Below, in pieces: positions 37,521 through 55,330 of a stretch of 64,000 nt of DNA. The stretch spans positions 124,001 to 188,000 of the forward strand of contig AP018697.1 of NCBI GenBank assembly GCA_004001285.1, given 5' to 3'. The stretch is from Arthrobacter sp. MN05-02 (GTDB taxonomy: Bacteria; Actinomycetota; Actinomycetes; Actinomycetales; Micrococcaceae). Position 1 is the stretch's first letter. The number at the start of each line of letters is the position of its first letter. The notes beneath the pieces were generated by a model. That model made no database searches and had not been told where the DNA came from. It saw nothing but the letters and a program-made list of their open reading frames with translations. The translations under genes were made by a program, and so were the position numbers.

Positions 37521-37715
37521 CTAGGGACGGATGTCCGGCGGCATGGCACAGGCCGCGTCACCCGGGAGGAGCCACGCATAGTGCCATTCCCCCTCCGCAT
37601 CCGTTGCGCGTCCCGGCCGCTCTCCTCCGCCCGGCCGGCTCCGGAGTCGTGCCCACCAGCCGGTCGGAGTGTCCCGGTCGGCGGTGCCGCCCGTGCCGGG
37701 GAAGGCCGTGGTCAT
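37521..37715 (-). CDS. Small ORF coupled to the allophanate hydrolase gene
   Basis: A 64-residue frame whose ATG overlaps the allophanate hydrolase stop (ATGA), identified once that gene's second frameshift is corrected. It is Gly/Arg/Pro rich with WHYAWLLPGDAACAMPPDIRP near the C-terminus (partly quoted). The overlap is the only strong evidence for translation. It would be the last gene of the guanidine/urea operon. Confidence 0.4.
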   Translation of the reverse strand: MTTAFPGTGGTADRDTPTGWWARLRSRPGGGERPGRATDAEGEWHYAWLLPGDAACAMPPDIRP

Positions 37716-39564: not shown

Positions 39565-42500
39565 GCGGCCACCTCTTCTGTTGCGCGGGGTCCGGGATCC
39601 TGGCCCGGTTCGGGTTCCGGTGCGGGGGAGGCGCCCAGGACGACGAGTGCCTCGCCGGCGACGACCTGGGACCCCGCGAGGGGGAGGACCTGCAGCACCG
39701 TGCCGTCGCAGGGCGCGCTGAGGACGGTCTCCATCTTCATGGCCTCGAGCGAGACGAGGGGCTGCCCCTCCGAGACGGTGTCGCCGGGTGCCACATCCAC
39801 CTTCCACACGCTGGCCGCGAAGGGCGCGGAGACCAGGGCGGCGCCGTCGGGCACCACGAGCTCCTCGGTGTCGGGAACGACGGCGGCCGCGGCGTCGGCG
39901 CGGTCGAACTCACCGGCGTCGGCCCACGCCTGGCGTTCGACGGCGAAGGCGGCGGACTGCCGGCTGCGGAACTCGGCGATGGACCCGCTGTTGTCGGCGA
40001 GGAAGCGCTCGTGCTCGGCGAGGGAGAACGTGCCCTCCTCGATCTCGACGCCGCGCCCCCGCCCTGCCGCCATGTCGGCGCGCAGGTCCAGCAGCTCCTC
40101 CGGGCTGACCGGGTACCAGGAGATGCGATCGAAGAACCGCAGCAGCCAGGGCGACCCCGACTCGAACGGTGCGGAGTCGGCGTAGCGTGACCAGACCTGC
40201 GTGGTGCGGCCCACGAACTGGTAGCCGCCCGGTCCCTCCATGCCGTAGATGCACAGATAGGCGCCACCGATCCCCACGGCGTTCTCCGGCGTCCACGTCC
40301 TCGCGGGGTTGTACTTGGTGGTGACGAGGCGGTGCCGCGGATCGAGCGGCGTCGCGACCGGCGCCCCGAGGTATACGTCGCCCAGGCCGAGGACCAGGTA
40401 CTCGGCGTCGAACACGGTGTCGAAGACGTCGTTCACGGAGTCCAGCCCGTTGATGCGCCGGATGAACTCGATGTTCCACGGGCACCAGGGGGCGTCGTCG
40501 CGCACGCCCGCCATGTACCGCTCGATCGCCTCACGCGTGGCCGGGTCGTCCCAGGACAGCGGCAGGCGCACCGAGCGGCTGGGCACCACGAGGTCCGAAC
40601 TGGCCGGCAGGGAACTCTCGATGTCCTGCGCCACCTGCAGCAGGCGGCGGGTGGACAGGACGGAGGGATCCACCTTGATCTGCAGGCTGCGGATGCCCGG
40701 GGTCAGGTCGACGACGCCGGGAAGGCGCAGGTGCTCGACGGCCTGGTGGAGGGCGTGCACGCGGGCCCGGAGGCCGAGGTCCAGGACCATGTCGCCGTAC
40801 TCGACGAGGAGGTTGTCGTCACCGGAGCGCCGGTAGGTCACGGCGGGCCTGCCCGGTTCCTCGGCGCTGCGTGCCAGCACGCCGTCGTCGCCGTCCCCGC
40901 CGCGGAGCAGCTGCCGGTGCAGGGACGCACTCTCCGTCATCAGCGGTTCCGGGGCATCCGGCAGGATCAGCTGGCGGCCCGGGCCGAGATCCTGCAGGAA
41001 CGGTGCCTGGGCGGCCCGGACGGGCACGAAGCGCACGGTGTCGCCCGGGCGGAGCTGCCCGAGCTTCCAGCGGTCGGCCGTCACGACGGTCACGGGGCAC
41101 ACGAACCCGCCGAGGCTGGGACCGTCCGGGCCGAGGAGGATCGGCGTGTCCCCGGTGAAATCCAGCGCACCGACGGAGTACGCGGTGTCGTGGATGTTGG
41201 ACGGGTGCAGGCCCGCTTCGCCGCCGTCGTTCCGCGACCAGCGGGGCTTGGGCCCGATGAGCCGGACTCCGGTCCGGGCGGAGTTGAAGTGCACCTCGTA
41301 GTCGGTGGTGAAGAGCTCGTCGATGTCCTCCCGCTGGAAGAACTCGGGTGCGCCGTGCGGGCCCTCGACGACGGTGAGCTCCCATCGGGACGTGAGGGTG
41401 GGCCGCGCGTCGAGCGGTACCGGGGCGCCGGTGGGCTCACCGGTGCGCGTGTTCGTGTGCACGTCCGCCCGCACCGTCCGCAGCACGTCGCCGGTGCGGA
41501 GGACGCGCCCGGCATGTCCGCCGAACTGGCCGAGGGTGAACGTGGACGCGCTGCCGAGGTACAGCGGGATGTCGAGGCCGCCGGCGAACAGGACGTAGCC
41601 CCGCAGGCCCGCTCCCTCAGCCGTCCCGACGTCGAGCGTGCCGCCGGCGGGAACCGTGACCGGCTCCCAGGCCGGTGCCTCGACACCGTCCACCGTGACG
41701 CGGACGTCCGCGCCGGTGACGCAGAGGGTGGTGTCGTGCGAGAAGGTCAGGCTGGGCCCGGTCATGGTGAATTCGAGGCCGGGTGCACCCTCCGGGTTGC
41801 CGAGCGCCTGGTTGCCGAACCGGAAGGAGAGGTCATCCATCGGACCGCTCGGGGGGACACCCACCTGCCACAGCTCGGTGCGGCCCGGCCAGTCCTGCAC
41901 GCTGGTCTGGAGGCCGGGACGCTCGACCGTGATGCGCGGCTCGGGGTCGCCCACCGAGTCGAGGGTGCTGGTGGAATGCCCTGCCGCGCGGACGACGTCG
42001 AGGGTGCTGACGGCGCGGAGCATGCCGAGATTGGTCTCGATGCCGTCGATCCGCGTGCCGGTGAGGGCGCCCGCGAGCCGGTCGAAGGCCTCGTCGCGGG
42101 TGGCGCCGGAGGTGATGATCTTGGCCAGGAGCGGATCGTAGTTCGTGGAGACCTCGCTGCCGGTCTCGGCCCAGGTGTCCACGCGGACGTGCTCCGCGTC
42201 GGGGTACGCGGCGTTCGTGATCGTGCCGGCACTGGGCTGGAAGCCCCGTGCGGGGTCCTCCGCGTAGACCCGGGCCTCGACGGCGGAGCCGGAGACCGGG
42301 AGGCTGTCGGGGACGCCGGCGAGGACGCCCGCGGCGTCGGGTCCGCCCTGTGCGAGGCGGAGCATCCACTCGACGAGGTCGACGCCGGTCACGGACTCCG
42401 TGACGGGGTGCTCGACCTGCAGGCGTGCGTTGACCTCGAGGAAGGAGGCCTCCTGGCGCGCGGGGTCGTAGACGAATTCCACGGTGCCGGCGGAGCGGTA

Positions 42501-43304
42501 GCCCAGCGACGCACAGAGCGCCCGCGAACTGCGGTGCAGTTCCTCGCGGAGGACGTCCGGCAGGTCCGGCGCGGGGGCTTCCTCGAGGACCTTCTGGTGG
42601 CGGCGCTGCAGCGAGCAGTCACGGTCGCCGAGGCTGACCACGCGACCCTCGCCGTCGCCGAAGACCTGGACCTCCACATGGCGGGCGTCCTCCACGTAGC
42701 GCTCGGCGAAGACACCGGCCGTGCCGAAGCTCGCCCCGGCGAGGCGGGCCACGCGCGGGAAGCTCTCCGCGAGCTCCTCCTCGGTGCGGCACACGGTCAT
42801 CCCGATGCCGCCTCCGCCGCCGGTCGCCTTGAGCATGAGCGGATAGCCGATGGACGCCCCGGCCGCCAGGGCGTCGTCCACGTCGTCGAGGAGCCCCGAG
42901 CCGGCGATCATGGGGACGCCGGCGGCGGCTGCTGCGTCGCGGGCGGTGTGCTTGGTACCGAAGATCTGCAGCTGCTCGGGCGTGGGGCCGACGAAGACGA
43001 GCCCCGCCGCCTCGACGGCCGCCGCGAAGTCGGCGTCCTCGGAGAGGAACCCGTAGCCGGGGTGGATGGCGCCGGCACCCGTGGAGGCCGCGGCGGCGAG
43101 CAGGGCATCGACGCGGAGGTAGGAGTCCTTGGCCGGGGCGGGGCCGAGCAGGACCGCCTCGTCGGCCAGCCGGACGTGGCGGGCGCCGCGGTCCGCCTCG
43201 GAGAACACGGCGACGGTGCGCAGCCCCAGCGTCCGGGCGGACTCGATGATGCGGCAGGCGATCTCTCCGCGGTTGGCGACGAGCAGGGTGTCGAAGCGGT
43301 TCAT
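39561..43304 (-). CDS. Biotin-dependent urea/guanidine carboxylase
   Basis: A 1247-residue multidomain enzyme. Residues 1-450 are a biotin carboxylase with ATP-grasp loop KATGGGGGIGM and EVNARLQVEHPVTE. About 480-790 is a KipA/CT-A-B-like carboxyltransferase half (VQDWPGRTELWQVGVPPSGP), followed by a KipI/CT-C-D half. The biotinyl domain has EAMKMET with the biotinylated Lys near 1187. Such enzymes were named urea carboxylases, but those beside two DUF1989 proteins act on guanidine. Biotin protein ligase is not in the window. ATG overlaps the preceding stop by four bases. Confidence 0.94.
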   Translation of the reverse strand: MNRFDTLLVANRGEIACRIIESARTLGLRTVAVFSEADRGARHVRLADEAVLLGPAPAKDSYLRVDALLAAAASTGAGAIHPGYGFLSEDADFAAAVEAAGLVFVGPTPEQLQIFGTKHTARDAAAAAGVPMIAGSGLLDDVDDALAAGASIGYPLMLKATGGGGGIGMTVCRTEEELAESFPRVARLAGASFGTAGVFAERYVEDARHVEVQVFGDGEGRVVSLGDRDCSLQRRHQKVLEEAPAPDLPDVLREELHRSSRALCASLGYRSAGTVEFVYDPARQEASFLEVNARLQVEHPVTESVTGVDLVEWMLRLAQGGPDAAGVLAGVPDSLPVSGSAVEARVYAEDPARGFQPSAGTITNAAYPDAEHVRVDTWAETGSEVSTNYDPLLAKIITSGATRDEAFDRLAGALTGTRIDGIETNLGMLRAVSTLDVVRAAGHSTSTLDSVGDPEPRITVERPGLQTSVQDWPGRTELWQVGVPPSGPMDDLSFRFGNQALGNPEGAPGLEFTMTGPSLTFSHDTTLCVTGADVRVTVDGVEAPAWEPVTVPAGGTLDVGTAEGAGLRGYVLFAGGLDIPLYLGSASTFTLGQFGGHAGRVLRTGDVLRTVRADVHTNTRTGEPTGAPVPLDARPTLTSRWELTVVEGPHGAPEFFQREDIDELFTTDYEVHFNSARTGVRLIGPKPRWSRNDGGEAGLHPSNIHDTAYSVGALDFTGDTPILLGPDGPSLGGFVCPVTVVTADRWKLGQLRPGDTVRFVPVRAAQAPFLQDLGPGRQLILPDAPEPLMTESASLHRQLLRGGDGDDGVLARSAEEPGRPAVTYRRSGDDNLLVEYGDMVLDLGLRARVHALHQAVEHLRLPGVVDLTPGIRSLQIKVDPSVLSTRRLLQVAQDIESSLPASSDLVVPSRSVRLPLSWDDPATREAIERYMAGVRDDAPWCPWNIEFIRRINGLDSVNDVFDTVFDAEYLVLGLGDVYLGAPVATPLDPRHRLVTTKYNPARTWTPENAVGIGGAYLCIYGMEGPGGYQFVGRTTQVWSRYADSAPFESGSPWLLRFFDRISWYPVSPEELLDLRADMAAGRGRGVEIEEGTFSLAEHERFLADNSGSIAEFRSRQSAAFAVERQAWADAGEFDRADAAAAVVPDTEELVVPDGAALVSAPFAASVWKVDVAPGDTVSEGQPLVSLEAMKMETVLSAPCDGTVLQVLPLAGSQVVAGEALVVLGASPAPEPEPGQDPGPRATEEVAA

Positions 43305-43975
43305 GCGGCGTCCTCCGGGCGTGTGACGATCATGCGGACGGGCGTGGGGTCGAAGCCGTTGCAGGGGTTGTTGACCTGCGGGCAGTTCGAGACGAGCACC
43401 AGGGTGTCCACCTCGGCGCGGAGGGCCACGCGCTTGCCGGGAGCGGAGAGGCCGTCGACGATCCCGAGGGCGCCGTCGGGGTCGACGGGGACGTTCATGA
43501 ACCAGTTGATGTTGGAGACGAGGTCGCGCTTGCCGAGCCCCAAGCGGGAGCCCTCGATCAGGAAGTTCTCCACGCAGGCGTGCTGCTCGCGGGTGTGCTG
43601 GCCATAGCGGAGCGTGTTGGACTCCTGCGAGCAGGCGCCGCCGATGGTGTCGTGGACGCCCACCTCGTCGGCGACGACGCTCATGAGGGCGAGGCCGGTG
43701 TCGGCGCGGAGCACCGATCCGGTGGTGAGGACGATGGAGCGCTGCTGCGCGATGGTGACGGGCGCCGAGTACCGGACGGCGGTGTCCTCGGCGGCGTAGA
43801 GCAGGCAGTCGACCGCCTGGTTGCCGTCGAGGTCCACGATGGTGAGGACGTCCCCCGCGGCGACGACGGCGGACCACGGCCCGCGTGCCTCGACGTGCTC
43901 GTCGAGGACGACGGCGCCGGGGACGAGTGCCGCGTCGGTGGCCGTGTCGGCGGCCGGCTGGATGGTGGTGGTCAT
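43301..43975 (-). CDS. DUF1989 protein (urea carboxylase-associated protein 2; carboxyguanidine deiminase subunit)
   Basis: A 224-residue DUF1989 protein with the family's conserved cysteine/histidine region: NQAVDCLLYAAED, GACSQESNTLRYG, and LVSNINWFMNVPVDPDG. With its paralogue upstream it matches the paired subunits of carboxyguanidine deiminase, which removes ammonia from carboxyguanidine to give allophanate. The established work is on other bacteria; here the role rests on synteny. ATGA overlaps link it to genes on both sides. Confidence 0.9.
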   Translation of the reverse strand: MTTTIQPAADTATDAALVPGAVVLDEHVEARGPWSAVVAAGDVLTIVDLDGNQAVDCLLYAAEDTAVRYSAPVTIAQQRSIVLTTGSVLRADTGLALMSVVADEVGVHDTIGGACSQESNTLRYGQHTREQHACVENFLIEGSRLGLGKRDLVSNINWFMNVPVDPDGALGIVDGLSAPGKRVALRAEVDTLVLVSNCPQVNNPCNGFDPTPVRMIVTRPEDAA

Positions 43976-44847
43976 CGGGTGCTCCTTGCGGCGAGGTCGT
44001 GCTCGGTGTTGTCCAGTGCCTGCAGGTGTTCGGGCGCCAGCGGTCCGACCAGGCTGCCTGCGGCCAGTGCGGCGAGGTCCTCGGGAGCCCGCCAGGCGGC
44101 GAGGTCGACGGCGGTGCCCGTGAACCCGGCGCGCGGGTCCAGGGGATGTGCGGTGTTGGCCAGCACGACGACGGCGTCCACCTGCAGCAGCAGGTCGATG
44201 TGGGCGCCGGCGCCGGCGCCGCCGGTGAAGCGGATGCCACCGTCGGCGTCGACGTGGATGCCCTTGAAGAGGGTGAGCGACGGGGCGACGTCCCGGGGAC
44301 CGAGGCCGTTCTTCAGTGCCCCGAGGGTCAGCAGCTCGCGTGCTGCCGGTGAGGCGCTGTGCGCCGTCCCGGCTCCGTACCGAGTGGTGTTGCCCGCCAG
44401 GGTGGTGGCACCGGTCAGGGCGTCGTGGTGGCCCGAGGTGTCCTCGACGATCGTGGCCAGCACGCGCCCGGCGTCGGACAGGAGGGGGTGCCCGGTCCCG
44501 GGGTAGGCCTGCCACGGCACCTTGACGGTGTCGGCGGCATTGAAGCGTTCGTGCGGCGCTCCGGCCCGGTACAGGAGGGTGTGCACGCAGGCGTCGCCCG
44601 TGTCGGTGAGCCGCAGGCGGGTCCCGCGGGCCAGCTGCAGGGTGGTGTAGCGGCCGAAGGCCAGCGTCTCGGACCAGACCAGGCGGCCGGCGGCGCCGTC
44701 GGGCAGTGCGGCCGTCACCCGGGAGGGGGCGGTGGACACCGGGACGTGGCGCATGGTGTCCGCGGTGCGGCCGTGCTGGTCCCTTGCGTGCGCGCGGGCT
44801 CCGGCCGTGGTGGCCGTGGTGGCCGGGGCGTCGGTGGTCTGTGTCAT
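43972..44847 (-). CDS. DUF1989 protein (urea carboxylase-associated protein 1; carboxyguanidine deiminase subunit)
   Basis: A 291-residue paralogue of the next gene, with about 50 extra N-terminal, Ala/Thr-rich residues. RLRLTDTGDACVHTLLYRAG, NTTRYGAG and APSLTLFKGIHVDADGGI are family features. It should form the heteromeric deiminase with the 224-residue protein. It overlaps that gene by ATGA and follows the permease by about 60 bases. Confidence 0.9.
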   Translation of the reverse strand: MTQTTDAPATTATTAGARAHARDQHGRTADTMRHVPVSTAPSRVTAALPDGAAGRLVWSETLAFGRYTTLQLARGTRLRLTDTGDACVHTLLYRAGAPHERFNAADTVKVPWQAYPGTGHPLLSDAGRVLATIVEDTSGHHDALTGATTLAGNTTRYGAGTAHSASPAARELLTLGALKNGLGPRDVAPSLTLFKGIHVDADGGIRFTGGAGAGAHIDLLLQVDAVVVLANTAHPLDPRAGFTGTAVDLAAWRAPEDLAALAAGSLVGPLAPEHLQALDNTEHDLAARSTR

Positions 44848-44907
44848 GTCGATCCTTGTCGGTGCAGGTCGGCAGCCGCCGGGCGGCTGATGCGTGCGAA
44901 CGGAGTG

Positions 44908-46404
44908 CTAGGAGGCCCTGGCTGCGATGCTCCGGCGGATCCACAGACCTCCGAGCAGCACGACGGCGACCATGAGCGGGGCGGAGTAGAGGAGGATCCC
45001 GTTCTCGCCGGCGGGGTCGTAGACCTCCGGGCGGGGCCAGGCGAGGTTGACCACCATGACGGCGCCGTAGAGGACGGCGAGCACGTTCACCGGCAGGCCC
45101 CAGCGGCCCAGGGAGAACAGGCCCGCGGGCATCGTCTGCCCGACGCGGTCCCAGTCGCCGCGCAGCCGGTTGATCAGCTGCGGGACGGTGACCAGCAGGT
45201 AGGCGATGTACACCATGACGATGCAGACGCTGGTGAGCGTGGTGAAGAGGGCCGCGTTGCCGACGTTGATGGCCAGGACGCCGACGGCGAGGGCGCCGAT
45301 GAAGATGGACGGCCACATGGGCGTGCCACGGCGGGGGTGGACGGTGGAGAGCAGCGACGAGGCGGGGAGCGTGCCGTCGCGTGCCATCGAGAACACCAGG
45401 CGCGAGCCGGCGGTCTGGATGGCGAGGGTGCAGACGAAGATGGCGATGGCGACGTCGACGAGCAGGACCTTGCCCCAGAAGGTGCCGAGGACCGCCGTCA
45501 GGACGTAGGGGAGTCCCTCGGTGGCCAGCCGGCCGTCGTCGAGGCTCGGCGCCGCCATGAGGGCCGTGATGATCATGAGGGCCCCGCCGACCCCCGAGAT
45601 CGCCAGTGCCGAGATGATGGTCCGGGGTGCGGTGCGCCGCGGGTCCCGGTTCTCCTCCGAGAGTTCGCCGGCGGAGTTGAAGCCCACCATGACGTACGCG
45701 GCCATGAGGCCGGAGACGAGGAACGCCCCCACGGCGCCGAGGTCCGAGCCCTGCAGCACCGTGGTGTCCATCACGACGTCGGGCCCGCGCTGCGCCGCGG
45801 TGATCAGGGCGAGGACGACGGCGATGACGCCGACGATCTCGCAGGTCACGCCGACCGAGTTGACGTGGGCCATGAGCCGGACGCCCATCGCGTTGATGAC
45901 GGTGGTGGCCACCAGCAGGATGGCACCCAGGACGACGGCGTTCGCCGCGCCCGTGACGGTGTTGAGGGCGGGGTCGCCGCCGACGAGCTGGAATCCGCTC
46001 CAGAGCTGGGGCAGCACCACCTGCAGGGCGATGGCCGCGGCGGCTGCCGTGACCACCTGGGCGATCGCCATGAACCAGCCGGCGAACCAGCCCACCGTCT
46101 CACCGCCCACGCGCCGTGCCCACTGGTAGACCGCGCCGGACAGCGGATAGCGGGCGGCGAGTTCGGCGAAGTTCAGGGCGACGAGCAGCTGGCCTACGAG
46201 GACGATCGGCCAGGTCCAGAAGAACGCGGGGCCGGCGAACGAGTACCCGAAGGCGAAGAGCTGGAAGATCGTGGTGAGGATGGAGACGAAGGAGAAGCCT
46301 GCCGCGAAGGACGCGTAGCGGCCGAGCTTGCGGTGCAGGGAGGGCTCGTAGCCGAGGGCGGTGAGGTCTGCGTCGTCCGTGGGGGTCGCGGTGGGAATCG
46401 TCAT
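44908..46404 (-). CDS. APC-superfamily permease of the guanidine/urea operon
   Basis: A 498-residue transporter with twelve probable helices. ALGYEPSLHRKLGRYASFAAGFS opens it (partly quoted), and SEENRDPRRTAPRTI is the APC loop. It is the first gene of the operon with the two DUF1989 proteins, carboxylase and allophanate hydrolase, so it probably imports guanidine or a guanidine-bearing amino acid. Family alone gives only amine/amino acid transport. A promoter and operator-like repeat lie upstream. Confidence 0.92.
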   Translation of the reverse strand: MTIPTATPTDDADLTALGYEPSLHRKLGRYASFAAGFSFVSILTTIFQLFAFGYSFAGPAFFWTWPIVLVGQLLVALNFAELAARYPLSGAVYQWARRVGGETVGWFAGWFMAIAQVVTAAAAAIALQVVLPQLWSGFQLVGGDPALNTVTGAANAVVLGAILLVATTVINAMGVRLMAHVNSVGVTCEIVGVIAVVLALITAAQRGPDVVMDTTVLQGSDLGAVGAFLVSGLMAAYVMVGFNSAGELSEENRDPRRTAPRTIISALAISGVGGALMIITALMAAPSLDDGRLATEGLPYVLTAVLGTFWGKVLLVDVAIAIFVCTLAIQTAGSRLVFSMARDGTLPASSLLSTVHPRRGTPMWPSIFIGALAVGVLAINVGNAALFTTLTSVCIVMVYIAYLLVTVPQLINRLRGDWDRVGQTMPAGLFSLGRWGLPVNVLAVLYGAVMVVNLAWPRPEVYDPAGENGILLYSAPLMVAVVLLGGLWIRRSIAARAS

Positions 46405-46613: not shown

Positions 46614-47309
46614 GTGACCCTCATCGGACCGGGACGTCCCCGCACGCGACAATCGACCCGACCAGGAGCCACGGCCCGCGAGGAGATCCTCGACGCGGCA
46701 GCCGAACTCTTCACCACCCAGGGCTACGCCACCACCTCCACGCGGGCCATCGCCGACGCCGTCGGGATCCGCCAGTCCTCGCTCTACCACCACTTCGCCA
46801 CGAAGGACGACATCCTCGAGGACCTGCTGGCCGGGACGGTCGCGGACGGGCTGGCGTTCGCCCGGGCAGTGGCCGCCACGGACGACGCGACGGACGGAGT
46901 GCCTCCCGCCTCACGGCTCCACGCGGTGGCATTCTTCGACGGAACGCAGCTGTGCGGCGGACGCTGGAACATCGGGGTCCTCTACCACCTGCCGGAGGCG
47001 CGGGGCGAGCGCTTCCAGGCGTTCCTGGCGGATCGGGAGGAGCTGCGGCGCCTGTACCGGCGGCTGGGAGCGGCCGCCGTGCCAGCGCCCCTGTGGCCCG
47101 AGGATCCCGGGCACCACGGAGAGCTGGCCTTCCGCCTCGTCGAATCCCTCGTGAGCCTCCGGGCGGACGGTCAGGTGACCCCGGGGTCACCGCTGCAGGT
47201 AGCCGACGCCGCCATGGTGCTGTGCGGTGCCGGCAGCGATCTCGGGACGATCCGGGAGCAGAGCCTCGCCCTCATCGCGCGGCTCGGGCGCGTGGTGCCG
47301 GCGCCCTAG
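46614..47309 (+). CDS. TetR-family transcriptional regulator
   Basis: A 231-residue regulator. The N-terminal TetR HTH is EEILDAAAELFTTQGYATTSTRAIADAVGI (partly quoted) with RQSSLYHHFATKDDILEDLL. The C-terminal ligand domain has no recognisable motif. It is divergent from the guanidine/urea operon and is its likely repressor. The GTG at 46614 has no clear ribosome site. Its stop overlaps that of the convergent SDR gene. Confidence 0.88.
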   Translation: MTLIGPGRPRTRQSTRPGATAREEILDAAAELFTTQGYATTSTRAIADAVGIRQSSLYHHFATKDDILEDLLAGTVADGLAFARAVAATDDATDGVPPASRLHAVAFFDGTQLCGGRWNIGVLYHLPEARGERFQAFLADREELRRLYRRLGAAAVPAPLWPEDPGHHGELAFRLVESLVSLRADGQVTPGSPLQVADAAMVLCGAGSDLGTIREQSLALIARLGRVVPAP

Positions 47310-48190
47310 GATGCGAGCGCCTTTCCGTCCGTGTCGAGATAGTCGCGCCAGGACCGCTTCGGAATCCAGCCGAGCATCCTCTGCGCCTTCGCGCTGGAGA
47401 TGCCCGAGGCGTCCTTCCGGTCCAGCTCGCGCAGCTCGATGGCGTCACCGTAGTACTTCGCGAGCGACTCGGCGAAGTCGTGCCCGCCGACGTTGTCCGG
47501 CGATGCGATGTAGAAGACCTCGTGGCCGGGAAGTTCGGATCCGGTCGCGAGCACGATGGCGTCGGCGAGGTCGTAGGCGTCGATGTAGCTCCACAGGTTG
47601 GGGCTCAGCACCGAGGTGTCGCGCACCTGCGGACCGAGGTTGGTCTCGTAGTTCCCCTCGTACTGCACCCAGCAGGGCCGGATGGAGATGCAGCGGATGT
47701 CCGACCGCGCGACGGCGGCGTCCATCAGCTGCTCGCCGAAGTGCTTGGAGAGGGCGTACGGGTCCTGCGGGTGGATCGGGTGCTCCTCGTCGACGGGAGC
47801 GTAGTCGGGCAGGAAGTCCCGCTCCGGGAAGAAGAATCCGGGCACGGTCTCGCTCGAGATGTAGACGAAGCGCTTGACGCCGAACCGGATGGCCGCCTCG
47901 AGCACGTTGAAGGTGGCCATGAGGTTGGTCTGGAAGACGACGTGCGGTGGGTGGCCGGTCGGCTCGGGGATCGCGGCGACGTGCACCACGGCCTCCGCCC
48001 CATGGACGACGGCGTACGCCTGGCCGGCGTCGGTGAGGTCCGCCATCGTGTACTTCGGCGTGCCTTCGGGCTTCCGTTCGTACCCGGGGCGCGTCAGGTC
48101 GGTGGTCCTGACCTCGTGGCCGGCGGCGATCATCGCCTGCGTCACGGCGCGGCCCACCTTTCCGTGGGCACCGGTGATGAGGACCTTCAT
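47306..48190 (-). CDS. NAD(P)-dependent extended SDR (epimerase/dehydratase-like)
   Basis: A 294-residue extended SDR. Cofactor motif TGAHGKVGRAV, AAIPEPTGHP, catalytic Ser in ISSETVP and YALSKHFGEQL with Tyr-Lys. The C-terminal sugar-binding part is YIDAYDLADAIVLA. The family includes uronate dehydrogenases and nucleotide-sugar epimerases; which reaction is open. It is the last gene of the GntR-Cache-SDR unit (ATGA overlap), which diverges from the N-demethylase operon. Confidence 0.9.
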   Translation of the reverse strand: MKVLITGAHGKVGRAVTQAMIAAGHEVRTTDLTRPGYERKPEGTPKYTMADLTDAGQAYAVVHGAEAVVHVAAIPEPTGHPPHVVFQTNLMATFNVLEAAIRFGVKRFVYISSETVPGFFFPERDFLPDYAPVDEEHPIHPQDPYALSKHFGEQLMDAAVARSDIRCISIRPCWVQYEGNYETNLGPQVRDTSVLSPNLWSYIDAYDLADAIVLATGSELPGHEVFYIASPDNVGGHDFAESLAKYYGDAIELRELDRKDASGISSAKAQRMLGWIPKRSWRDYLDTDGKALAS

Positions 48191-48969
48191 GAGTGCTCTC
48201 CTTGGGGTAGGTCGCTGTCAGCCGATGTAGCGGACGTCCGGTCCTGCGCCGGGGCGGGCGGGACGCCCTGGCGGCGGCTCAGCAGTGAGAAGCCGAGATG
48301 CGGCACCTCGATCGGGATCATGTCGCTGCCGGCCGGCGTGGAGCGGATCCTCTCACCGACCAGGTACGCGCCCGAGTTCCCGACGACCACGCGGCCGCTC
48401 GCGTTGATCAGGGCGGCGTCTCCCGGGATGGCCCGGAGGACGGGCATGAAGATCTCCTCGAGGGTCCGGATCCTGATGTCGCAGCCGGCCACTCCTGCGA
48501 ACGTCCCGCCGAGCTGGATGGGCGCCGAGTGGGTGAGGATGTATTCGTCCAGCCCCAGGTAGTCGACGTAGGGGCCCCACGAGGTCTGCTCCCCGGTACG
48601 GCTGGCCGAGGCGAAGAAGGGCATGTTCTGGTAGTCGTAGAACCGTTCTCCCCCCGGCGTCAGGTCGAACTCCAGTTTCTCGACGGTGTCCTGGCGTCGG
48701 ATCCACCACTCGAGGCCGCCGTCGTTGCCCTGGATGGCCTCCGCCGAGAAGATCACGCCAGCTCCGACGACGAAGGGGTGGGCTGCCAGGAAGTCGCCGG
48801 CCAGACCCTCGAGGTGTGCGACGTCGCCGGGTGTCAAATTGAAGGGCCGTGTCCGGTCGGTCCACAGCGCCGCCGTCCGTGCGGCGAAGGCATGGACGTC
48901 CACGCCGAGCGCGTTCATCCACGCGGCGATCTCTGCTGCTGCCGTTCGGGCAGGGGCATTGGCGGTCAT
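48187..48969 (-). CDS. Cytosolic Cache-domain ligand-binding protein
   Basis: A 260-residue soluble protein with a PDC/dCache-like core: FVVGAGVIFSAE, then RFYDYQNMPFFASAS, TSWGPYVDYLGLDEYILTHS and APIQLGGTFAGVAGCDI. This is the pattern of Cache domains that sense amino acids and amines. Unlike almost all Cache sensors it has no signal peptide, membrane helix or output domain. AGGAG precedes the ATG at 48969. It overlaps the GntR stop and the SDR start by ATGA, so all three are coupled. Confidence 0.85.
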   Translation of the reverse strand: MTANAPARTAAAEIAAWMNALGVDVHAFAARTAALWTDRTRPFNLTPGDVAHLEGLAGDFLAAHPFVVGAGVIFSAEAIQGNDGGLEWWIRRQDTVEKLEFDLTPGGERFYDYQNMPFFASASRTGEQTSWGPYVDYLGLDEYILTHSAPIQLGGTFAGVAGCDIRIRTLEEIFMPVLRAIPGDAALINASGRVVVGNSGAYLVGERIRSTPAGSDMIPIEVPHLGFSLLSRRQGVPPAPAQDRTSATSADSDLPQGEHS

Positions 48970-49727
48970 GGGCGCTCCTGCCGGCTCGTGGGATACCCGA
49001 GGGACAGTTTGGTGTCCACCAGATGATGGATGTCGTGCCGGATGTGCTCCAGCACCAGTCGCTGGGCGTGCTCGGATGCATCGTCCGCGATGGCCCGGGC
49101 CAGTGCGAGGTGCTCGGCCGCGACCCGCTCCGGATCGCGGGTCGACGGCAGGGGCGCCCACAGGGCCTGGACGATCTCGGCCTGCAGCCGGATCTCCGCG
49201 TTCGTCAGCCGCGGCGACTGCGCCAGGACCGCCAGCTCGATGTGGAACCGGCTGTCGGCACGTGCCCGCGCTTCCGGTGTGTCCGACAGGACGAGACCCC
49301 GGGCGAGTTCCAGGAGCCTGCCCACCTCGTGGGGTTCGGCACGTTCGCAGGCGAGTCTCACGGTCGCGGCGGCGATCGCCGCGTGCTCGTCGCCGACATC
49401 ACGGATCTCGGCGATGGAGGTCTCCTGGAACCACGTCCTCATCGCCTCCTCGGAGGTGAAGGGCTGCCGGAGGATGAACGTCCCACCGCTGCGTCCCCGG
49501 CGGGTGGCGACGATGCCCTGCTGCCGGAGGTCGGACAGTGCTTCCCGGAGAGTGGACGGTGCCACGCCGAACATCTCCGACAGGGCGGTCTCCGGGGGAA
49601 GCCGTTCGCCGACCTTCAGCAGTCCCAGGGAGATCGCCTTGGAGATCCTGTTCACGATGGCTCCGGAGCGCTCGGTCTCCGGCAGCGATCGGTAGACATG
49701 GGCCTGGAAAGCGGTGGTGGGGGCCAA
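48966..49727 (-). CDS. GntR/FadR-family transcriptional regulator
   Basis: A 253-residue regulator. The winged helix includes LPPETALSEMFGVAPSTLRE and ALSDLRQQGIVATRRGRSGG. The C-terminal FCD-type domain has FHIELAVLAQSPRL and HIRHDIHHLVD with metal-binding histidines. The TTG at 49727 has GGAG seven bases upstream; an in-frame ATG at 49817 would add a non-conserved stretch. It is divergent from the N-demethylase operon and probably binds the AAACTATAGTTT palindrome. Confidence 0.88.
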   Translation of the reverse strand: MAPTTAFQAHVYRSLPETERSGAIVNRISKAISLGLLKVGERLPPETALSEMFGVAPSTLREALSDLRQQGIVATRRGRSGGTFILRQPFTSEEAMRTWFQETSIAEIRDVGDEHAAIAAATVRLACERAEPHEVGRLLELARGLVLSDTPEARARADSRFHIELAVLAQSPRLTNAEIRLQAEIVQALWAPLPSTRDPERVAAEHLALARAIADDASEHAQRLVLEHIRHDIHHLVDTKLSLGYPTSRQERP

Positions 49728-49886
49728 GAAGGGACTCCAAGCAGTGGAAGGACAGCACCAACTGTAGCGGGCGCGGACCGGAAGGATCGACGGGCGCACG
49801 AAATCCGACGGAAACATAGGTTATGCCATGGTGGTCCCTCCCTTGCTGCCGCGTAGGGCCTGCGGGACAGCTTCTTCTGCCGGCCG

Positions 49887-49917
49887 TTGCGGTTTAAAAC
49901 ATTTGAAACTATAGTTT
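49887..49917 (+). promoter_or_regulatory. N-demethylase operon promoter with palindromic operator
   Basis: TTGCGG (49887-49892) and TATAGT (49910-49915) are 17 bases apart. A perfect 12-bp palindrome AAACTATAGTTT (49906-49917) covers the -10. Binding by the divergently encoded GntR protein would block transcription of the permease operon. Confidence 0.65.
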
Positions 49918-49972
49918 TTGCGACGTGGCCCAGCTCACATGAGCTTCCGGTGGCCCGAAGAGAAGGAATCCG

Positions 49973-51526
49973 ATGCGTGTAGAAAGTACGGAACCGCCCA
50001 GCGAGTCGATCGCCGACCAGGACGCTGAGCACCTCGCCAGCCTCGGCTACTCCTACGAGCGGCAGTTCAAGCGGGAGATGACGTTCTGGGGGAACGTCTC
50101 GCTGGGGTTCACCTACCTGTCGCCGGTCGTCGCCGTGTACTCGCTGTTCGCGGCGTCGCTGGGTGTCGCCGGACCGCCGATGTTCTGGTCCCTCGTGATC
50201 GTCGGCATCGGACAGCTCCTCGTCGCCACGGTCTTCGGGGAGGTCGTCGCGGCATACCCGGTGGCCGGCGGGGTCTACCCCTGGTCCCGGAGGCTGTGGG
50301 GCCGCAAATGGGGCTGGATGAACGGCTGGGTCTACCTGGTGGCGCTCCTGACCACCATCGCCAGCGTCGCCTACGGGGCAGGGCCCTTCCTCAGCACCCT
50401 CGTGGGGATGGCGAACACCGTCGATTCCGTCATCATCTCGGGCCTCGTGGTCATCGCGCTGGCCACCGTCCTGAACCTCGGTGGAACCAGGGTCCTGAAC
50501 ACCGTGGCGATGATCGGCCTCCTGGCGGAACTCGGCGGCGCACTGGCCGTGGGGAGCTGGCTGCTGCTGACGGCCCGCCACCATGACCTCGGCGTCCTGT
50601 TCCAGTCCTTCGGAGCAGGGGAGGGCAGCAACTACTTCGTGGCGTTCGCTGCCGCAGGCCTGATCGGCATCTTCCAGTACTACGGCTTCGAAGCCTGCGG
50701 CGACGTGGCGGAGGAAGTCCCCAACCCCGGCCGCACCATCCCCAAGGCCATGAGGATGACCATCTACATCGGTGGCTTCGCCGCGATGTTCGTCTGCCTG
50801 TCCCTGATCCTCGCCGTCCCCGACTTCGCCGCCGTGATCTCCGGCGCCGATACGGACCCCGTCGGCAACATCCTCCTCGCCGCCTTCGGGCCGATCGGTT
50901 TCAAGGTCGTCCTCGCCGTCGTCCTGGTCTCCTTCCTCTCCTGCGTGCTGAGCCTGCAGGCCGCCACCTCACGTCTTGCCTACTCGATGGCCCGCGACGG
51001 AATCCTCCCGGCCAGCAGGCTGCTGAGCACCTTCAGCGAGACGCGCCACGTCCCCCCGTACGCCCTGCTCCTCGCCGGACTGGTACCCGCCGTCATCGTC
51101 ATCGGCTCGAAGGTCTCCAGCGACGCCCTGACCGTGATCATCTCCTTCGCGGCCATGGGCATGTACATGGGGTTCCAGATGGTGGTCCTCGCCTCGCTGC
51201 GGGCGCGCCTTCTCGGCTGGAAGCCCAACGGTGCCTTCCAGCTCGGCGCCTGGGGCATCCCCGTGAACATCGCGGCCCTCGTCTGGGGCGTGCTCGGCAT
51301 GGTGAACATGGCCTGGCCCCGGACTCCCGAGGACGGCTGGTTCGCCAACTACGTGGTCCTGATCTCCGCGGTCACCGTCGTCGTGCTCGGCCTCATCTAC
51401 ATGGCGTGGAAGAAGCCGTACCTCAAGGGCGACGCTCCGGCAGCCGATGCCGTGCCGTCCGCCCCGTCCGCCCTGTCCGCCGACCGCGTCGCCGTCCCGG
51501 CGGCCGCGCCGAAAGGCCGGGGGTGA
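49973..51526 (+). CDS. APC-superfamily permease of the N-demethylase operon
   Basis: A 517-residue transporter with twelve probable helices. The N-terminal LASLGYSYERQFKREMTFWG resembles amino-acid/amine APC members, and EEVPNPGRTIPKAM is the conserved loop. The C-terminal tail is Ala/Pro-rich. AAGGAATCCG precedes the ATG. As first gene of the demethylase operon it probably imports the methylated amine or amino acid. It differs clearly from the permease at 44908-46404. Confidence 0.93.
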   Translation: MRVESTEPPSESIADQDAEHLASLGYSYERQFKREMTFWGNVSLGFTYLSPVVAVYSLFAASLGVAGPPMFWSLVIVGIGQLLVATVFGEVVAAYPVAGGVYPWSRRLWGRKWGWMNGWVYLVALLTTIASVAYGAGPFLSTLVGMANTVDSVIISGLVVIALATVLNLGGTRVLNTVAMIGLLAELGGALAVGSWLLLTARHHDLGVLFQSFGAGEGSNYFVAFAAAGLIGIFQYYGFEACGDVAEEVPNPGRTIPKAMRMTIYIGGFAAMFVCLSLILAVPDFAAVISGADTDPVGNILLAAFGPIGFKVVLAVVLVSFLSCVLSLQAATSRLAYSMARDGILPASRLLSTFSETRHVPPYALLLAGLVPAVIVIGSKVSSDALTVIISFAAMGMYMGFQMVVLASLRARLLGWKPNGAFQLGAWGIPVNIAALVWGVLGMVNMAWPRTPEDGWFANYVVLISAVTVVVLGLIYMAWKKPYLKGDAPAADAVPSAPSALSADRVAVPAAAPKGRG

Positions 51527-51533
51527 CCGGGCC

Positions 51534-52139
51534 GTGCTGATCACCGGTATCAAGAGCCGTCCCGTCTACGACGAGCTGACGCCCATGGCGACAGGCTCGA
51601 ACCACGTCGCCGCCGCCCAGGGCAGCGGCGGAGGACCGCTGGTCCGCCTGCTCGGGGAGATGGACCCGGCACAGCTGGCGGCGACCACCGTCCTGTACTC
51701 GATCGAGTCGTTCACGGGCAAGAACCACCTGGCGGACCTCCAGGCGTTCCCGGTGCGCGAGCTCCTGGTGTTCCCGAGCAACGCGGAGGCCGTGCGGGGC
51801 CTCGACGTCCTCCTCGCGACGGCGGGAATGGGAACCCGGCTGTACCTGGCCGGGTCGGAGGGGTTCATCGGCACGTCCATGCAGGTGGCCACCTCGTACG
51901 GCATGAACACGGACGAGGTGCTGCGTGAGCACGCGGGCTCGTTCGTGCGGCGGGTGTGGTGTGCACACTGCGGCCACTATTCCGAGAACGTGTCGCGACG
52001 GGTGTTCCGGTGCCCTGGCTGCGAGCGCGACCTGGTGGTCCGGGACCACTACTCCCGGAGGCTCGCCGCCTTCAAGGGAGTGAAAGCAGACGGTGAAGTA
52101 CCCGGCGAACTGCCGGACGACGAGGAGCTGGACACATGA
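51534..52139 (+). CDS. dmmA: DmmA-family subunit of an oxidative N-demethylase
   Basis: A 201-residue protein of the dimethylamine monooxygenase DmmA family. The C-terminus holds a zinc ribbon, WCAHCGHYSENV and FRCPGCERDL, with four cysteines. The N-terminus has TKN/SFTGKNHLADLQAFPV and a central hydrophobic segment (LDVLLATAGMGTRLYLAG). Known heterotrimeric dimethylamine monooxygenases combine this subunit with a flavin/2Fe-2S reductase and a DUF3445 heme subunit; all three are here. The GTG at 51534 is eight bases after the permease stop and overlaps the next gene by ATGA. Confidence 0.88.
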   Translation: MLITGIKSRPVYDELTPMATGSNHVAAAQGSGGGPLVRLLGEMDPAQLAATTVLYSIESFTGKNHLADLQAFPVRELLVFPSNAEAVRGLDVLLATAGMGTRLYLAGSEGFIGTSMQVATSYGMNTDEVLREHAGSFVRRVWCAHCGHYSENVSRRVFRCPGCERDLVVRDHYSRRLAAFKGVKADGEVPGELPDDEELDT

Positions 52140-53107
52140 GCGAGGCACAGAACGGGGCCCTGCGGCTGAAGGTCGACCGCATCGAAGCGGTGACCCCGGA
52201 GATCAACCGGTACACCTTCTCGGCGGCGGACGGATCGTGGCTCCCGCCCTTCTCCGGGGGGAGCCACGTCAGGGTCCTCATCGAGTTCGACGGCGAGACA
52301 CGGCGCAACGCCTACTCGCTCATGAGTTCGCCCTACGACACGAGCCGCTACCAGATTGCTGTCCGCCGCGTCGATGAGGGCAAGCTCGGCTCGGTCACGA
52401 TGCATCGGAACGTCCGCGAGGGCGACATCCTGTCCGTCACCACGCCGGCCAACCTCTTCCCCCTGTCCAAGCACGCCCGGCACCATGTCTTCATCGCCGG
52501 TGGTGTCGGGGTCACCCCGATCTACTCGCAGCTCGACGAACTGAGCGTCAAGGGTGGCTCCTTCGAACTGCACCTGGCTGTGCGCGGCCCCGAGCACGCC
52601 GCCTTCGGCCACGAACTGCAGGAACTCTACGGAGACAGGGTCCGGCTGTACGGCGCAGGTGAGGGGTCCCGGCTGAATGCGTCCGAGATCCTCGCCGGCC
52701 GCCCGCTCGGCACCCACGCCTACGTCTGCGGGCCCTCCCGCATGGTCGACGACGTCATCGGGGCGGCCCACGCCCACGGCTGGACCGACTCGAACATCCA
52801 CTTCGAGCGGTTCGAGGACCTCGGGTCCACCGGCGATCCCTTCTCCGTCACGCTGGCCCGGTCCGGAGCGGTGATCGACGTGTCCCCCGAGCAGTCGCTG
52901 CTGGAGGCGGTCGAGGAGGCCGGCCACAAGCTGCCCTACCTCTGCCGGGGCGGCGCCTGCGGCGAATGCGAGACCGAGGTCCTGGAGATCGAAGGGACTC
53001 TCGACCACCGGGACGACTGGCTCTCGGATTCGGACCGCTGCACGAACAAGCTCATCATGCCCTGCGTCTCGCGGGCCACCTGCACGAAACTCGTCATCAA
53101 TGCTTAA
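52136..53107 (+). CDS. Reductase subunit (PDR/VanB-type, FMN and 2Fe-2S) of the N-demethylase
   Basis: A 323-residue flavin oxidoreductase fused to a C-terminal plant-type ferredoxin. RRNAYSLMSSPYD is the flavin motif, AGGVGVTPIYSQL the NAD(P)H motif and AYVCGPSRM the second. The 2Fe-2S ligands are LCRGGACGECE and a later CVSRAT. It passes electrons from NAD(P)H to the heme subunit encoded next. ATGA overlap with the DmmA-like gene and an 11-base gap to the next. Confidence 0.93.
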   Translation: MSEAQNGALRLKVDRIEAVTPEINRYTFSAADGSWLPPFSGGSHVRVLIEFDGETRRNAYSLMSSPYDTSRYQIAVRRVDEGKLGSVTMHRNVREGDILSVTTPANLFPLSKHARHHVFIAGGVGVTPIYSQLDELSVKGGSFELHLAVRGPEHAAFGHELQELYGDRVRLYGAGEGSRLNASEILAGRPLGTHAYVCGPSRMVDDVIGAAHAHGWTDSNIHFERFEDLGSTGDPFSVTLARSGAVIDVSPEQSLLEAVEEAGHKLPYLCRGGACGECETEVLEIEGTLDHRDDWLSDSDRCTNKLIMPCVSRATCTKLVINA

Positions 53108-53118
53108 GGAGCACTCCT

Positions 53119-54214
53119 GTGACTGCGATTCCTAGGACGGCCGGCTTCACCCCGGACGAGACCTACACCCCGGAGGGTGGCTACCGGTTCTCGAACTCCC
53201 GGGAGGGGGTCCGCAACCTCCCGTTCCCGTTCCCGGACGACGAGTACGCGTACTCGATGAACCTGGAACCGCACGTCCCGGCCGGGACGGGCGCCCTGCG
53301 GTCCGCGTTCGACATCGACGAGCACTACGTGTCCGAGTGCGCCCACCGCGACCAGATGCTGCGCGACATGCCGGGCGTCCACTACCTCGCGCTGCCGCAC
53401 ATGATGGAAGCGCAGTGGGATCTGCTGGAGCTCATCTTCGAGTCCTACGCCAAGGACTTCCCGGAGCATTTCACGCTCACCAAGAGCGGCAACGAGTGGC
53501 GGTGGCAGAACCGGCTCCTCGGGATCGACGACTCGTTCACCTTCGGTGATCCTGCCACCCTGCCCATGGACCCGATGGAGTACGCGACGCGGCAGGCGCA
53601 GGGCGAGTTCGTGGTCCTCGAGGAGAAGGACAACACGCTCGTCATCGGCGCCGGCATGACGACCCAGCGGGCCGACTACTCGCTGCAGTTCAACATGGGC
53701 ATGAGCTTCTTCGAATTCCACGGACCCGTGCCCAAGCTGCACGAGATGGGCATTCTGGACCGCGCCCTGAAGTTCCTGCTCCGGATGAAGCCCGGACACC
53801 CCGTCCGACGCGTCAACTGGTCCCTGACCGTCAACCCTCGCCTCGAGACCTCCGTGGAGACGCTCCCGGACTGGGCTCCGGACCGGGCGACAGTCACGCC
53901 CGAGAATGCCGGGGGAGATGGTGTACCTGCGGATCGAACTGCAGCCACTGCACCGCCTGCCCCGGTCCAACGCCATCGTGTTCCCGGTCCGTACGTATCT
54001 GGTCAGCCTGGCCGAACTGGTGGAGCATGCTCCGGACTGGGCGAAGCGGATGCACCGGGCGCTCGCCTCGCTGGACCCCGAGCTCGTCGACTACAAGGGC
54101 TTCCACCGCTACCACGCGGCCGCCGTCGAGTGGCTCTCCCAGCACGACGACGGTGCCCCCCTCGCCACGGGCTACCCCTGGATCGAGGGCGGCATTCAGC
54201 CCGGCGACAGCTGA
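53119..54214 (+). pseudogene. Heme-dependent oxidative N-demethylase alpha subunit (DUF3445), frameshifted
   Basis: Read across one shift the product is 364 residues of the DUF3445 family, which binds heme in a PAS-like fold and demethylates amines with O2. FDIDEHYVSECAHRDQMLRD and MSFFEFHGPVPKLHEM are in the first frame; EMVYLRIELQPLHRLPRSNA and TYLVSLAELVEHAP in the second. The break is a five-G run at 53911-53915; four Gs give ENAGEMVYLRIE. The GTG at 53119 has AAGGAG (53106-53111). It is followed by a very strong terminator. The enzyme is probably intact in the organism. Confidence 0.88.
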
Positions 54215-54238
54215 GCCCGGAGGCGATTCCTCCTCCCC

Positions 54239-54280
54239 ACGACGACGGGGTGCCCGCTGCTGCGGGCACCCCGTCGTCGT
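54239..54280 (+). terminator. Strong terminator of the N-demethylase operon
   Basis: ACGACGACGGGGTGCCCGC (54239-54257) / GCGGGCACCCCGTCGTCGT (54262-54280), perfect 19-bp stem with a TGCT loop. It resembles the stems at 56124-56157 and 61516-61565. The 150 bases after it contain only a short unassigned frame. Confidence 0.9.
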
Positions 54281-54438
54281 CCCCGCTCCGCCCGGATAGG
54301 ACCCTGCCCGGACGGTTCAGGCCTCGGGAAGCGCCGCGAGGGTCTTCTTCGTGTCGTCGTACCACCGTGGAATCGAACGCGACCCGTGGCTTGCCGAGGT
54401 GGTACCAGGCGGCGGGTGACTCGCCTCTTGGCAGGCGG

Positions 54439-55330
54439 TCAGCCGAGGATGGACAGGGCCCGGGGGACGCTCTCGATGGTGATGTCCGTGGCGGCGTCGA
54501 CGGATTTGACCTCGCCGTCGAGCTGGTAGGGCATGGGCTTGAGGGTCGAGAACCGGTACTGGCTGTAGCTCGGCTGGTCGCCCAGCCCCCTTCGTCGTCG
54601 CCCGCAGCGCGGTGAGCAGGATCCGCCACTTGGCCATGTGCGGGAAGGTGATGACCTCGAACTTCCCGTCGGTGGGCTGGTCGCCGGCCTCGCTCAGGGT
54701 CGCGTACTTGGCCATCTGCGAGATGTTGGCGAACACCAGGCTGTCGAAGGCGCGACGCTTGCCGTCGCTCTGACGGATCTCGAAAGGTTTGAACTTGCGG
54801 AAGGTGCGCGCCACGGAGAACATCTCCTTGATGGCGCCCTTGCTGCCCTTCTCGAGGTCGATCGCCACGACGGGTGTCAGCCCGAAACCGATATAGGAGT
54901 GGGCGTACACCGCGTCCGTGCCCGCCGGGCCGATGCTGATGCGCAGCACGTCGATCCGGCGTACCCGGCCCTCGAGAATGGCTTCAGCCAGTGGCTTGCG
55001 CCCCGTGACGCGGCTGTGGTCGTTCGCGTTGCCGGCGGCCAGCACCGCGCAGACGGCGTCGTCGCTGCCACTGGACATCACTCCGTTGACGACCTCGTTG
55101 TAGCCGCCGTCACCGCTGACCGAGACGACCAGGGCGTTGCCGGCCGAGGCCGCGTCCCGCGCGAGGTCGATCGCGTGCCCGGCGTGTTCCGTGGGCTGCA
55201 GGACGACCTTCGTGTCCGGCAGGGCCGGCACGAGTTCGCCGGACAGCTCTTCGGCGAGCGCGGGGGCGTCTCCGGTGCTGTTCGGGTTGAAGATGATGGT
55301 GATCGTGTCGAACCTGCGCGGCGACTCCAT
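54439..55330 (-). pseudogene. Diacylglycerol/lipid kinase family protein, frameshifted
   Basis: Read across one shift the product is 296 residues with the DAGK catalytic fold: TIIFNPNSTGD (nucleotide loop), VSVSGDGGYNEVVNGVM (GGDGT-like) and LAAGNANDHSR. It phosphorylates diacylglycerol, sphingosine or related lipids at the membrane face. The break is at a C run on the plus strand (54586-54590); with one base less the minus strand reads TTKGLGDQPSYSQYRFSTLK and ends ESVPRALSILG at 54439. AAAGGC precedes the ATG at 55330. Confidence 0.86.

Follow-up and report, generated by a model that had tools for sequence, protein, structure and literature searches.

The window, the whole 64-kb stretch of DNA that was analysed, contains a locus of seven genes, all of which were found where a preliminary description had placed them and each of which matches a known family. 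On the reverse strand lie genes for a GntR/FadR-type (FCD) regulator (48966..49727, or to 49817, the start being either TTG at 49727 or ATG at 49817), for a stand-alone double-Cache (dCache) protein (48187..48969; PF22673 above and PF02743 below cut-off), which overlaps the GntR gene by 4 bases, and for an SDR resembling NAD-dependent epimerases and uronate dehydrogenases (47306..48190; PF01370), which overlaps the Cache stop, again by 4 bases. On the forward strand are genes for an APC-superfamily permease (49973..51526; PF13520), a DmmA-like subunit of an oxidative N-demethylase (51534..52139; PF22290, PF22289 and NF041259, all above cut-off), an FAD/2Fe-2S reductase subunit (52136..53107; PF00970, PF00175 and PF00111, all above cut-offs) and the haem-dependent oxidative N-demethylase alpha subunit, which is spread over two frames (53119..54214; PF11927). 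The two transcripts had been described as facing each other, whereas the GntR-Cache-SDR genes in fact diverge from the permease-DmmA-reductase-alpha genes. Nor does the SDR appear to be a component of the system, as had been supposed: among the best 80 of 101 Cache loci it lies beside Cache only in A. agilis UMCV2 (L098), and its homologues in five other genomes (87-90% identical) are located away from Cache. On this comparative evidence the core therefore comprises six genes and the SDR is a lineage-specific passenger or addition. A scan of 44-58.5 kb for promoters and terminators returned no promoter-like and one terminator-like element, no excess over shuffles, and no tRNA was found within the 64-kb window. 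Two putative operators can be placed between the divergent transcripts, the perfect palindrome AAACTATAGTTT on the permease side (49906..49917) and AAACATAGGTTA on the GntR side (49812..49823), the latter a conserved block in an alignment of 11 intergenic regions. The palindrome is present with at most one mismatch in 10 of 16 cases (the window, L098 and 14 loci in relatives with the window's own type of N-demethylase, hereafter own-type loci) and with 2-6 mismatches in L100, L101, L103, L167, L170 and L177; no close match was found in the other neighbourhood classes, where the best has 2 mismatches (L151) and all remaining have at least 3.

The forward-strand genes had been read as encoding a three-subunit oxidative N-demethylase and a dedicated permease, and the family matches bear this out. 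Both pieces of alpha score above the PF11927 cut-off, and profile matches place the DmmA and FAD/2Fe-2S reductase genes next to it. When compared with the PDB, the alpha profile matches one sequence at E ≤0.01, that of the haem-dependent oxidative N-demethylase 5lte/5lth/5lti (E 4e-139). Identity to the 5lte chain is 52-54% for the 14 own-type alphas, over the matched segment of 323-335 residues, and 43-47% for 17 alphas from divergent N-demethylases. The window has the identical set of three components as DmmABC of Ruegeria and Methylocella (PDB 5lte), but its regulator and permease differ, its host is without the methylamine outlets searched for, and none of dmmD, the glutamine-synthetase gene and the methylglutamate genes was seen next to the enzyme. 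According to the Results of PMC5520151, E. coli needs no more than dmmABC to turn dimethylamine into methylamine. The window enzyme is probably a secondary-amine N-demethylase, with dimethylamine the foremost candidate and other N-methyl amines possible.

The GntR and Cache genes form a conserved pair. The loci sampled were the best 80 of 101 from a profile built mainly on one family and are therefore biased to near relatives; in 79 of these 80, GntR precedes Cache on the same strand. Some gene starts were placed by script and may be wrong, but as called, the two genes overlap by 4 bases in 53 of the 79, are fused in L163 and are separated by 667 bases in L142, the others being at most 200 bases apart; in L088 and L093 GntR and Cache are likewise in one frame. 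Operons of this type are known in part. A 2023 preprint (PMC10104139) describes, in the portion drawn on here, stand-alone dCache_1AM proteins of Actinobacteria, Arthrobacter being named, that are encoded together with a transcription factor in operons of two genes, so the earlier statement that no such system had been described holds only in part. As in the window, the Arthrobacter and Mycobacterium operons of that preprint have a stand-alone Cache beside a transcription-factor gene, and its Figure 4 legend includes GntR. In the same portion no ligand or catabolic genes are given for the actinobacterial proteins, whereas the present loci tie the pair to two amine monooxygenase systems that are unrelated to each other. 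It is this tie of GntR-Cache to enzymes, together with the exchange of those enzymes, that is new; a literature search joining cache domain, GntR family and amine found no published work.

The surroundings of the best 80 of 101 Cache loci consist of an own-type N-demethylase in 14, a P450 cluster in 34 and a methylotrophy island in 21, with 11 unassigned (8 on stretches shorter than 12 kb; L098, L115 and L147 longer). The P450 class (B) is defined by a P450 or glutamine-synthetase-like match, P450 being present in 33 of 34 and the stretch of L123 ending first, and has a P450-ferredoxin-glutamine-synthetase-like cluster that resembles pip/mor cyclic secondary-amine catabolism. Specifically, the annotated locus L080 contains P450, ferredoxin, reductase and a glutamine-synthetase-like gene, and in more distant class-B loci ferredoxin or reductase was matched in only some. 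The P450 loci of the GntR-Cache family resemble the pip/mor system for piperidine, pyrrolidine and morpholine in GntR, P450, ferredoxin, ferredoxin reductase and the glutamine-synthetase-like gene, whereas the window has the haem-PAS demethylase in place of the P450 and lacks gamma-glutamyl genes. PipR is itself a FadR-like GntR protein, as stated in a passage of PMC2018728 (the pipRA paper, PMC93808, as cited there and in PMC9477822). The island class (C) is defined by a divergent demethylase or by an HPS, PHI, Cu-oxidase or trimethylamine-monooxygenase match; one or more of the latter four are matched in 20 of the 21 islands and the divergent N-demethylase in 17, and one representative each of the island trimethylamine monooxygenase, HPS, PHI and primary-amine oxidase scores above its curated cut-off. 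The Cache query also retrieved loci (L120, L132 and L135) from the strains of the Gram-positive methylotrophy clusters (Arthrobacter 35W, MA-N2 and Mycobacterium 141; PMC5023230). L120 has GntR-Cache and a divergent N-demethylase plus RuMP genes and an amine oxidase, and the window is without the last two.

Several observations connect the regulator family with more than one enzyme. A P450 query of four mycobacterial genomes, chosen for already having a Cache locus, gave 7 matches, five at 63-67% identity and two at 34%, and all five of the former have a GntR-Cache pair within ~5 kb. The window permease is 83-85% identical to permeases from six Arthrobacter P450 clusters. In a GntR tree of 69 rows (the 11 unassigned loci and the fused L163 being left out, and long branches flagged as meeting at L162), the own-type rows form two starred groups at separate places among P450-linked regulators and the island rows fall in one starred group, with 3 enzyme-class changes needed against a shuffled mean of 30. 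L167, L170 and L177 have an alpha 81-87% identical to that of A. ruber and a GntR just 46-48% identical to that of the window. As read from these comparisons, two unrelated monooxygenases, the P450 and the haem-PAS demethylase, are exchanged on one regulator family. In other soil bacteria the pair is often found next to a quite different enzyme for similar compounds, a clue to what the sensor detects.

The Cache protein had been suggested to be an intracellular sensor or carrier, and its features are in keeping with the former role. No hydrophobic leader was seen on inspection by eye, and the predicted model aligns with dCache structures over almost its full length, which gives it a double Cache fold. 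The pocket was mapped by HMM alignment to PctA and PctB with residues taken from a part of PMC10104139, the PctD-to-PctA numbering being our own transfer rather than an alignment of PctD. Core pocket residues are present (an aromatic pair, a hydrophobic and Ser/Thr pair, and Asp) and the Arg of amino-acid receptors is absent, the PctA Arg position being occupied by M, L, I or A in all 22 rows and by Q in L149. F119, Y134, D136, T146 and D164 are invariant across 40 rows, and the invariant W88/W89 are candidates, by spacing only, for the PctD-type Trp155. We infer that the stand-alone Cache acts as an amine sensor inside the cell.

We propose, as the reading that we moderately favour, that the locus serves the inducible uptake and demethylation of a small secondary amine, likeliest dimethylamine or another N-methyl alkylamine, with GntR and Cache as a split regulator. 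The permease would import the amine. The FAD/2Fe-2S reductase would take electrons from NAD(P)H and hand them on through DmmA to the haem-PAS alpha subunit, where oxidation of an N-methyl group would yield formaldehyde plus a primary amine. Together, GntR and soluble Cache would form a split one-component regulator, a sensor-repressor, in which GntR occupies the divergent promoter region and Cache, on binding the amine in the cell, alters the grip of GntR on DNA.

Comparison across loci favours secondary amines as the substrate class, and for this enzyme family dimethylamine is the substrate that has been tested. The earlier remark that the usual methylamine genes are absent holds genome-wide for the genes searched: in the strain's own genome, which is 96.4% complete, Cu amine oxidase and SoxD were not found, no glutamine synthetase scored above the TIGR03105 cut-off, and hexulose-phosphate synthase was limited to a 22-bit partial match. 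Since these methylamine routes are missing, we also weighed the earlier suggestion of a larger substrate, an N-methylated amine or amino acid such as sarcosine or an N-methyl omega-amino acid. Its demethylated product would feed into ordinary amino-acid metabolism, with the rest of the mechanism unchanged; we consider such a substrate rather unlikely. It would suit a permease of an amino-acid superfamily and the contrast with L076, an N-demethylase locus with a glutamine synthetase above the cut-off of TIGR03105 (565 bits), which we take to be the group holding GmaS. Three of the 14 own-type loci (L104, L106 and L108) have a succinate-semialdehyde-dehydrogenase-like gene past alpha and on its strand, but in L104 the gene is ~340 bases off and none is matched near the remaining 11, and the closeness of the enzyme to the crystallised family member and the missing Arg in Cache also speak against a larger substrate. 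A link to guanidine or urea (N-methylguanidines), suggested by the adjoining urea-carboxylase cluster at 37.5-46.4 kb, was rejected: that cluster has no match in the sequence covered for 14 of 14 own-type loci, and UMCV2 is without it beside the SDR.

The window alpha is not a single open frame. Two frames, corresponding to residues 1-265 and 265-362 of A. ruber alpha, join at ~53,910-53,913, and the adjoining diacylglycerol-kinase-like gene and an allophanate hydrolase are each likewise spread over two frames, as they might be if the locus were decaying in this strain and the enzyme were dead. We regard such decay as improbable, as identity of the protein to A. ruber alpha remains at 89% and 94% on the two sides, UMCV2 is in one frame across the break point, just 2 of the 17 UMCV2 gene calls with a window match shift frame (those covering alpha and the kinase), and breaks across unrelated genes fit assembly indel errors. 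Because alpha is in one frame throughout in relatives and the neighbouring gene is broken too, an assembly error is likely. Loss of the enzyme in UMCV2 was rejected, as the permease match there stops at a run of N and part of alpha lies elsewhere in the same record, also bordered by a run of N. It is very improbable that the soluble Cache instead carries the amine or acts as an accessory to the enzyme, with GntR sensing the ligand through its own FCD domain, for although such domains of GntR proteins often bind small metabolites and the window GntR has one, Cache tracks GntR and no single enzyme over three kinds of surroundings, and one-frame GntR-Cache genes exist.

The essence of the split regulator that we propose is that a sensor domain found mostly outside the cell, 78% of Cache domains being extracellular according to a passage of PMC4822843, would act for a GntR regulator as a ligand-binding half encoded apart from it, which, if true, would clearly exemplify the reuse of a sensor. 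The surroundings described here also offer testable ligands and targets, namely secondary amines and their monooxygenases, for proteins given none in the portion of PMC10104139 considered. It is possible, and to us nearly as likely as not, that GntR and the stand-alone Cache form a general two-protein intracellular sensor of secondary amines in Actinobacteria, repeatedly given non-homologous monooxygenases, as the three changes on the GntR tree suggest. Having two unrelated monooxygenases exchanged within a single regulator family provides a marker with which operons for amine breakdown can be sought; if the pair is such a general sensor, it would flag operons of this kind that are still undiscovered and predict what they act on.

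The GntR-Cache pair in the window belongs to a linkage that is conserved far beyond this locus. Genomes were scanned with a Cache profile, and the top 80 of 101 confirmed loci were retained; in 79 of these GntR lies upstream of Cache on the same strand, overlapping it by 4 bases in 53; the genes are fused in L163 and 667 bases apart in L142, other non-overlapping pairs are separated by at most 200 bases, and only L147 has no GntR match beside Cache. Natural fusions, with GntR and Cache as one open frame, are seen at L163:9077-10588, L088:9664-11133 and the very divergent L093:3721-5169. The neighbors of these same 80 loci fall into four classes, an N-demethylase of the window's own type (14), a P450 cluster (34), a methylotrophy island (21) and unassigned (11). 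In the 20.7-kb stretch of L115, GntR-Cache is present but no enzyme of any of the three kinds was found, which counts against a fixed partnership.

The seven gene positions of the preliminary description were confirmed by gene calls in the window and family matches. GntR, Cache and SDR run leftward, joined by 4-base overlaps, and the permease, DmmA, reductase and alpha subunit genes run rightward. The genome is 3.64 Mb and 96.4% complete, and the closest named match to its Cache is from Arthrobacter agilis UMCV2 (97% identical), in a scan that possibly excluded records very near the window's own. An alignment of 11 own-type intergenic regions contains two conserved blocks, AAACTATAGTTT (49906-49917), intact or with a single mismatch in 10 of 16 regions, and AAACATAGGTTA (49812-49823). 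These are candidate operators, one for each direction, and their conservation may stem in part from relatedness alone. GntR could start at 49727 or 49817, and we favor the inner start (49727) because a conserved site occupies 49812-49823.

The SDR, previously regarded as part of the system, falls outside the core: it lies beside Cache only in UMCV2 among the best 80 of 101 loci, and five other genomes among the 197 in the survey carry 87-90% identical copies elsewhere. Directly adjoining the demethylase locus is a urea-carboxylase-type cluster (37521-46404; TIGR02712 above cut-off, UAAP1/UAAP2, a TIGR03428 permease and an allophanate hydrolase in two overlapping frames). In UMCV2 siderophore-type ABC genes immediately follow the SDR, which implies a ~9.8-kb insertion or deletion between close relatives.

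Built on an alignment of 40 rows, the AlphaFold2 model of the Cache protein (pLDDT 88.9) is a double Cache domain as judged by structural match over residues 1-241. Its top four Foldseek matches are the amine receptors 3lib, McpX, McpU and PctD, followed by the GABA receptor PctC, and the structural Z scores of a Leptospira receptor (20.1), amine receptors (20.0) and the amino-acid receptor CtaA (19.4) amount to a tie. The position of the PctA arginine, which we take to have a carboxylate role, is M, L, I or A in 22 of 22 Cache rows and Q in L149. According to the available portions of PMC10104139, dimethylamine binding to the 3lib domain was measured at 0.53 uM, and in Arthrobacter, Mycobacterium and others a stand-alone dCache_1AM protein and a transcription factor make up two-gene operons, which is the closest prior description of the GntR-Cache pair in the sources consulted; a term search of the paper's text connected these proteins with no catabolic enzyme.

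A profile of the alpha subunit, built from 14 relatives and the two window pieces, has a single PDB match with an E-value no higher than 0.01: 5lte, the haem-dependent oxidative N-demethylase. The 14 own-type alphas from named genomes share 52-54% identity with it, and 17 divergent alphas 43-47%. Such a divergent alpha lies near methylotrophy genes at L120:16896-17891 and 16 similar loci, including that of Arthrobacter sp. 35W; the part of PMC5023230 consulted reports that no additional dimethylamine monooxygenase candidate was found in that strain. In the window the PF11927 match is in two pieces whose frames meet near 53,910. PF11927 is present in 24 of 197 genomes; in 22 of them a single-frame match spans most of the model, and the other two are the window's genome and one whose match lies at a contig end. 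The UMCV2 alpha is a single frame across the break. The next gene, diacylglycerol-kinase-like by eye (54317-55330), also has a frame change, near 54,550, its UMCV2 homologue being in one frame, and the allophanate hydrolase of the urea-carboxylase-type cluster is likewise in two frames. Assembly indels are favored over decay as the probable cause. The UMCV2 demethylase locus is itself split at runs of N, with halves far apart in the record (L098:7721-7973; L183:11642-11883), which suggests a scaffolding error.

Dimethylamine as the substrate is supported by the tested activity of the N-demethylase family: Ruegeria DmmABC in E. coli converts it 1:1 to methylamine, as excerpts of PMC5520151 state. 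The preliminary description preferred a larger N-methylated amine or amino acid. At the thresholds used, the window's own genome lacks a Cu amine oxidase, SoxD, a TIGR03105-grade glutamine synthetase, a hexulose-phosphate synthase and a P450 of the P450-cluster kind, and the lack of methylamine-route genes leaves the product without a recognized outlet, which counts against dimethylamine. Own-type hosts differ (Cu amine oxidase in 4/9 searched, SoxD in 5/9, a strong hexulose-phosphate synthase match in 3/9, all three in UMCV2), and L076, from a member of the Micrococcaceae and encoding another kind of N-demethylase, has a TIGR03105-grade enzyme. For these reasons we retain the larger substrate, though as an unlikely alternative to dimethylamine. 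A zinc alcohol dehydrogenase (15397-16587), more than 30 kb from the demethylase, has glutathione-independent formaldehyde dehydrogenase as its best curated hit (161.6 bits, under the 636.95 cut-off).

The annotated P450 cluster of L080 contains a permease, P450, ferredoxin, ferredoxin reductase, glutamine-synthetase-like, solute-binding-like and two C26 peptidase-like genes, and a succinate-semialdehyde-dehydrogenase match lies in the retrieved stretch of 8 of the 34 P450-cluster loci (best 80 of 101). The family-3 solute-binding-like protein of these operons (L080:11929-12654) has no hydrophobic leader by eye and may be a second case of an extracellular-type binding domain working intracellularly. 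In the sections of PMC9477822 and PMC2018728 consulted, the pip/mor systems for cyclic secondary amines likewise combine a P450 and ferredoxin partners, and PipR belongs to the FadR-like GntR proteins. In four mycobacterial genomes, picked for already having a Cache locus, GntR-Cache lies within ~5 kb of all five P450 matches at 63-67% identity (two 34% matches stand outside this count). For the islands, trimethylamine monooxygenase, hexulose-phosphate synthase, phosphohexuloisomerase and primary-amine oxidase were each checked with one representative, and all four score above their curated cut-offs.

Enzymes have been exchanged on this regulator family. In a GntR tree of 69 proteins (the window and 68 classified loci), all island rows group together, whereas the own-type rows fall into two starred groups, each nested in a different main half and surrounded by P450 rows, so that three changes of neighbor class are needed in all; the tree is midpoint-rooted and gives no direction of exchange. 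Specifically, the alphas of L167, L170 and L177 (Galactobacter, a MAG and Herbiconiux) are 81-87% identical to that of A. ruber, and their GntR and Cache are 46-48% and 37-39% identical to those of the window, so that nearly one and the same enzyme has been joined to two branches of this regulator family. The window permease shares 83-85% identity with the permeases of six Arthrobacter P450 clusters, whose GntR and Cache are 56-62% and 45-49% identical to the window's. This likeness of permeases suggests that own-type and P450 loci would take up related compounds, namely secondary amines.
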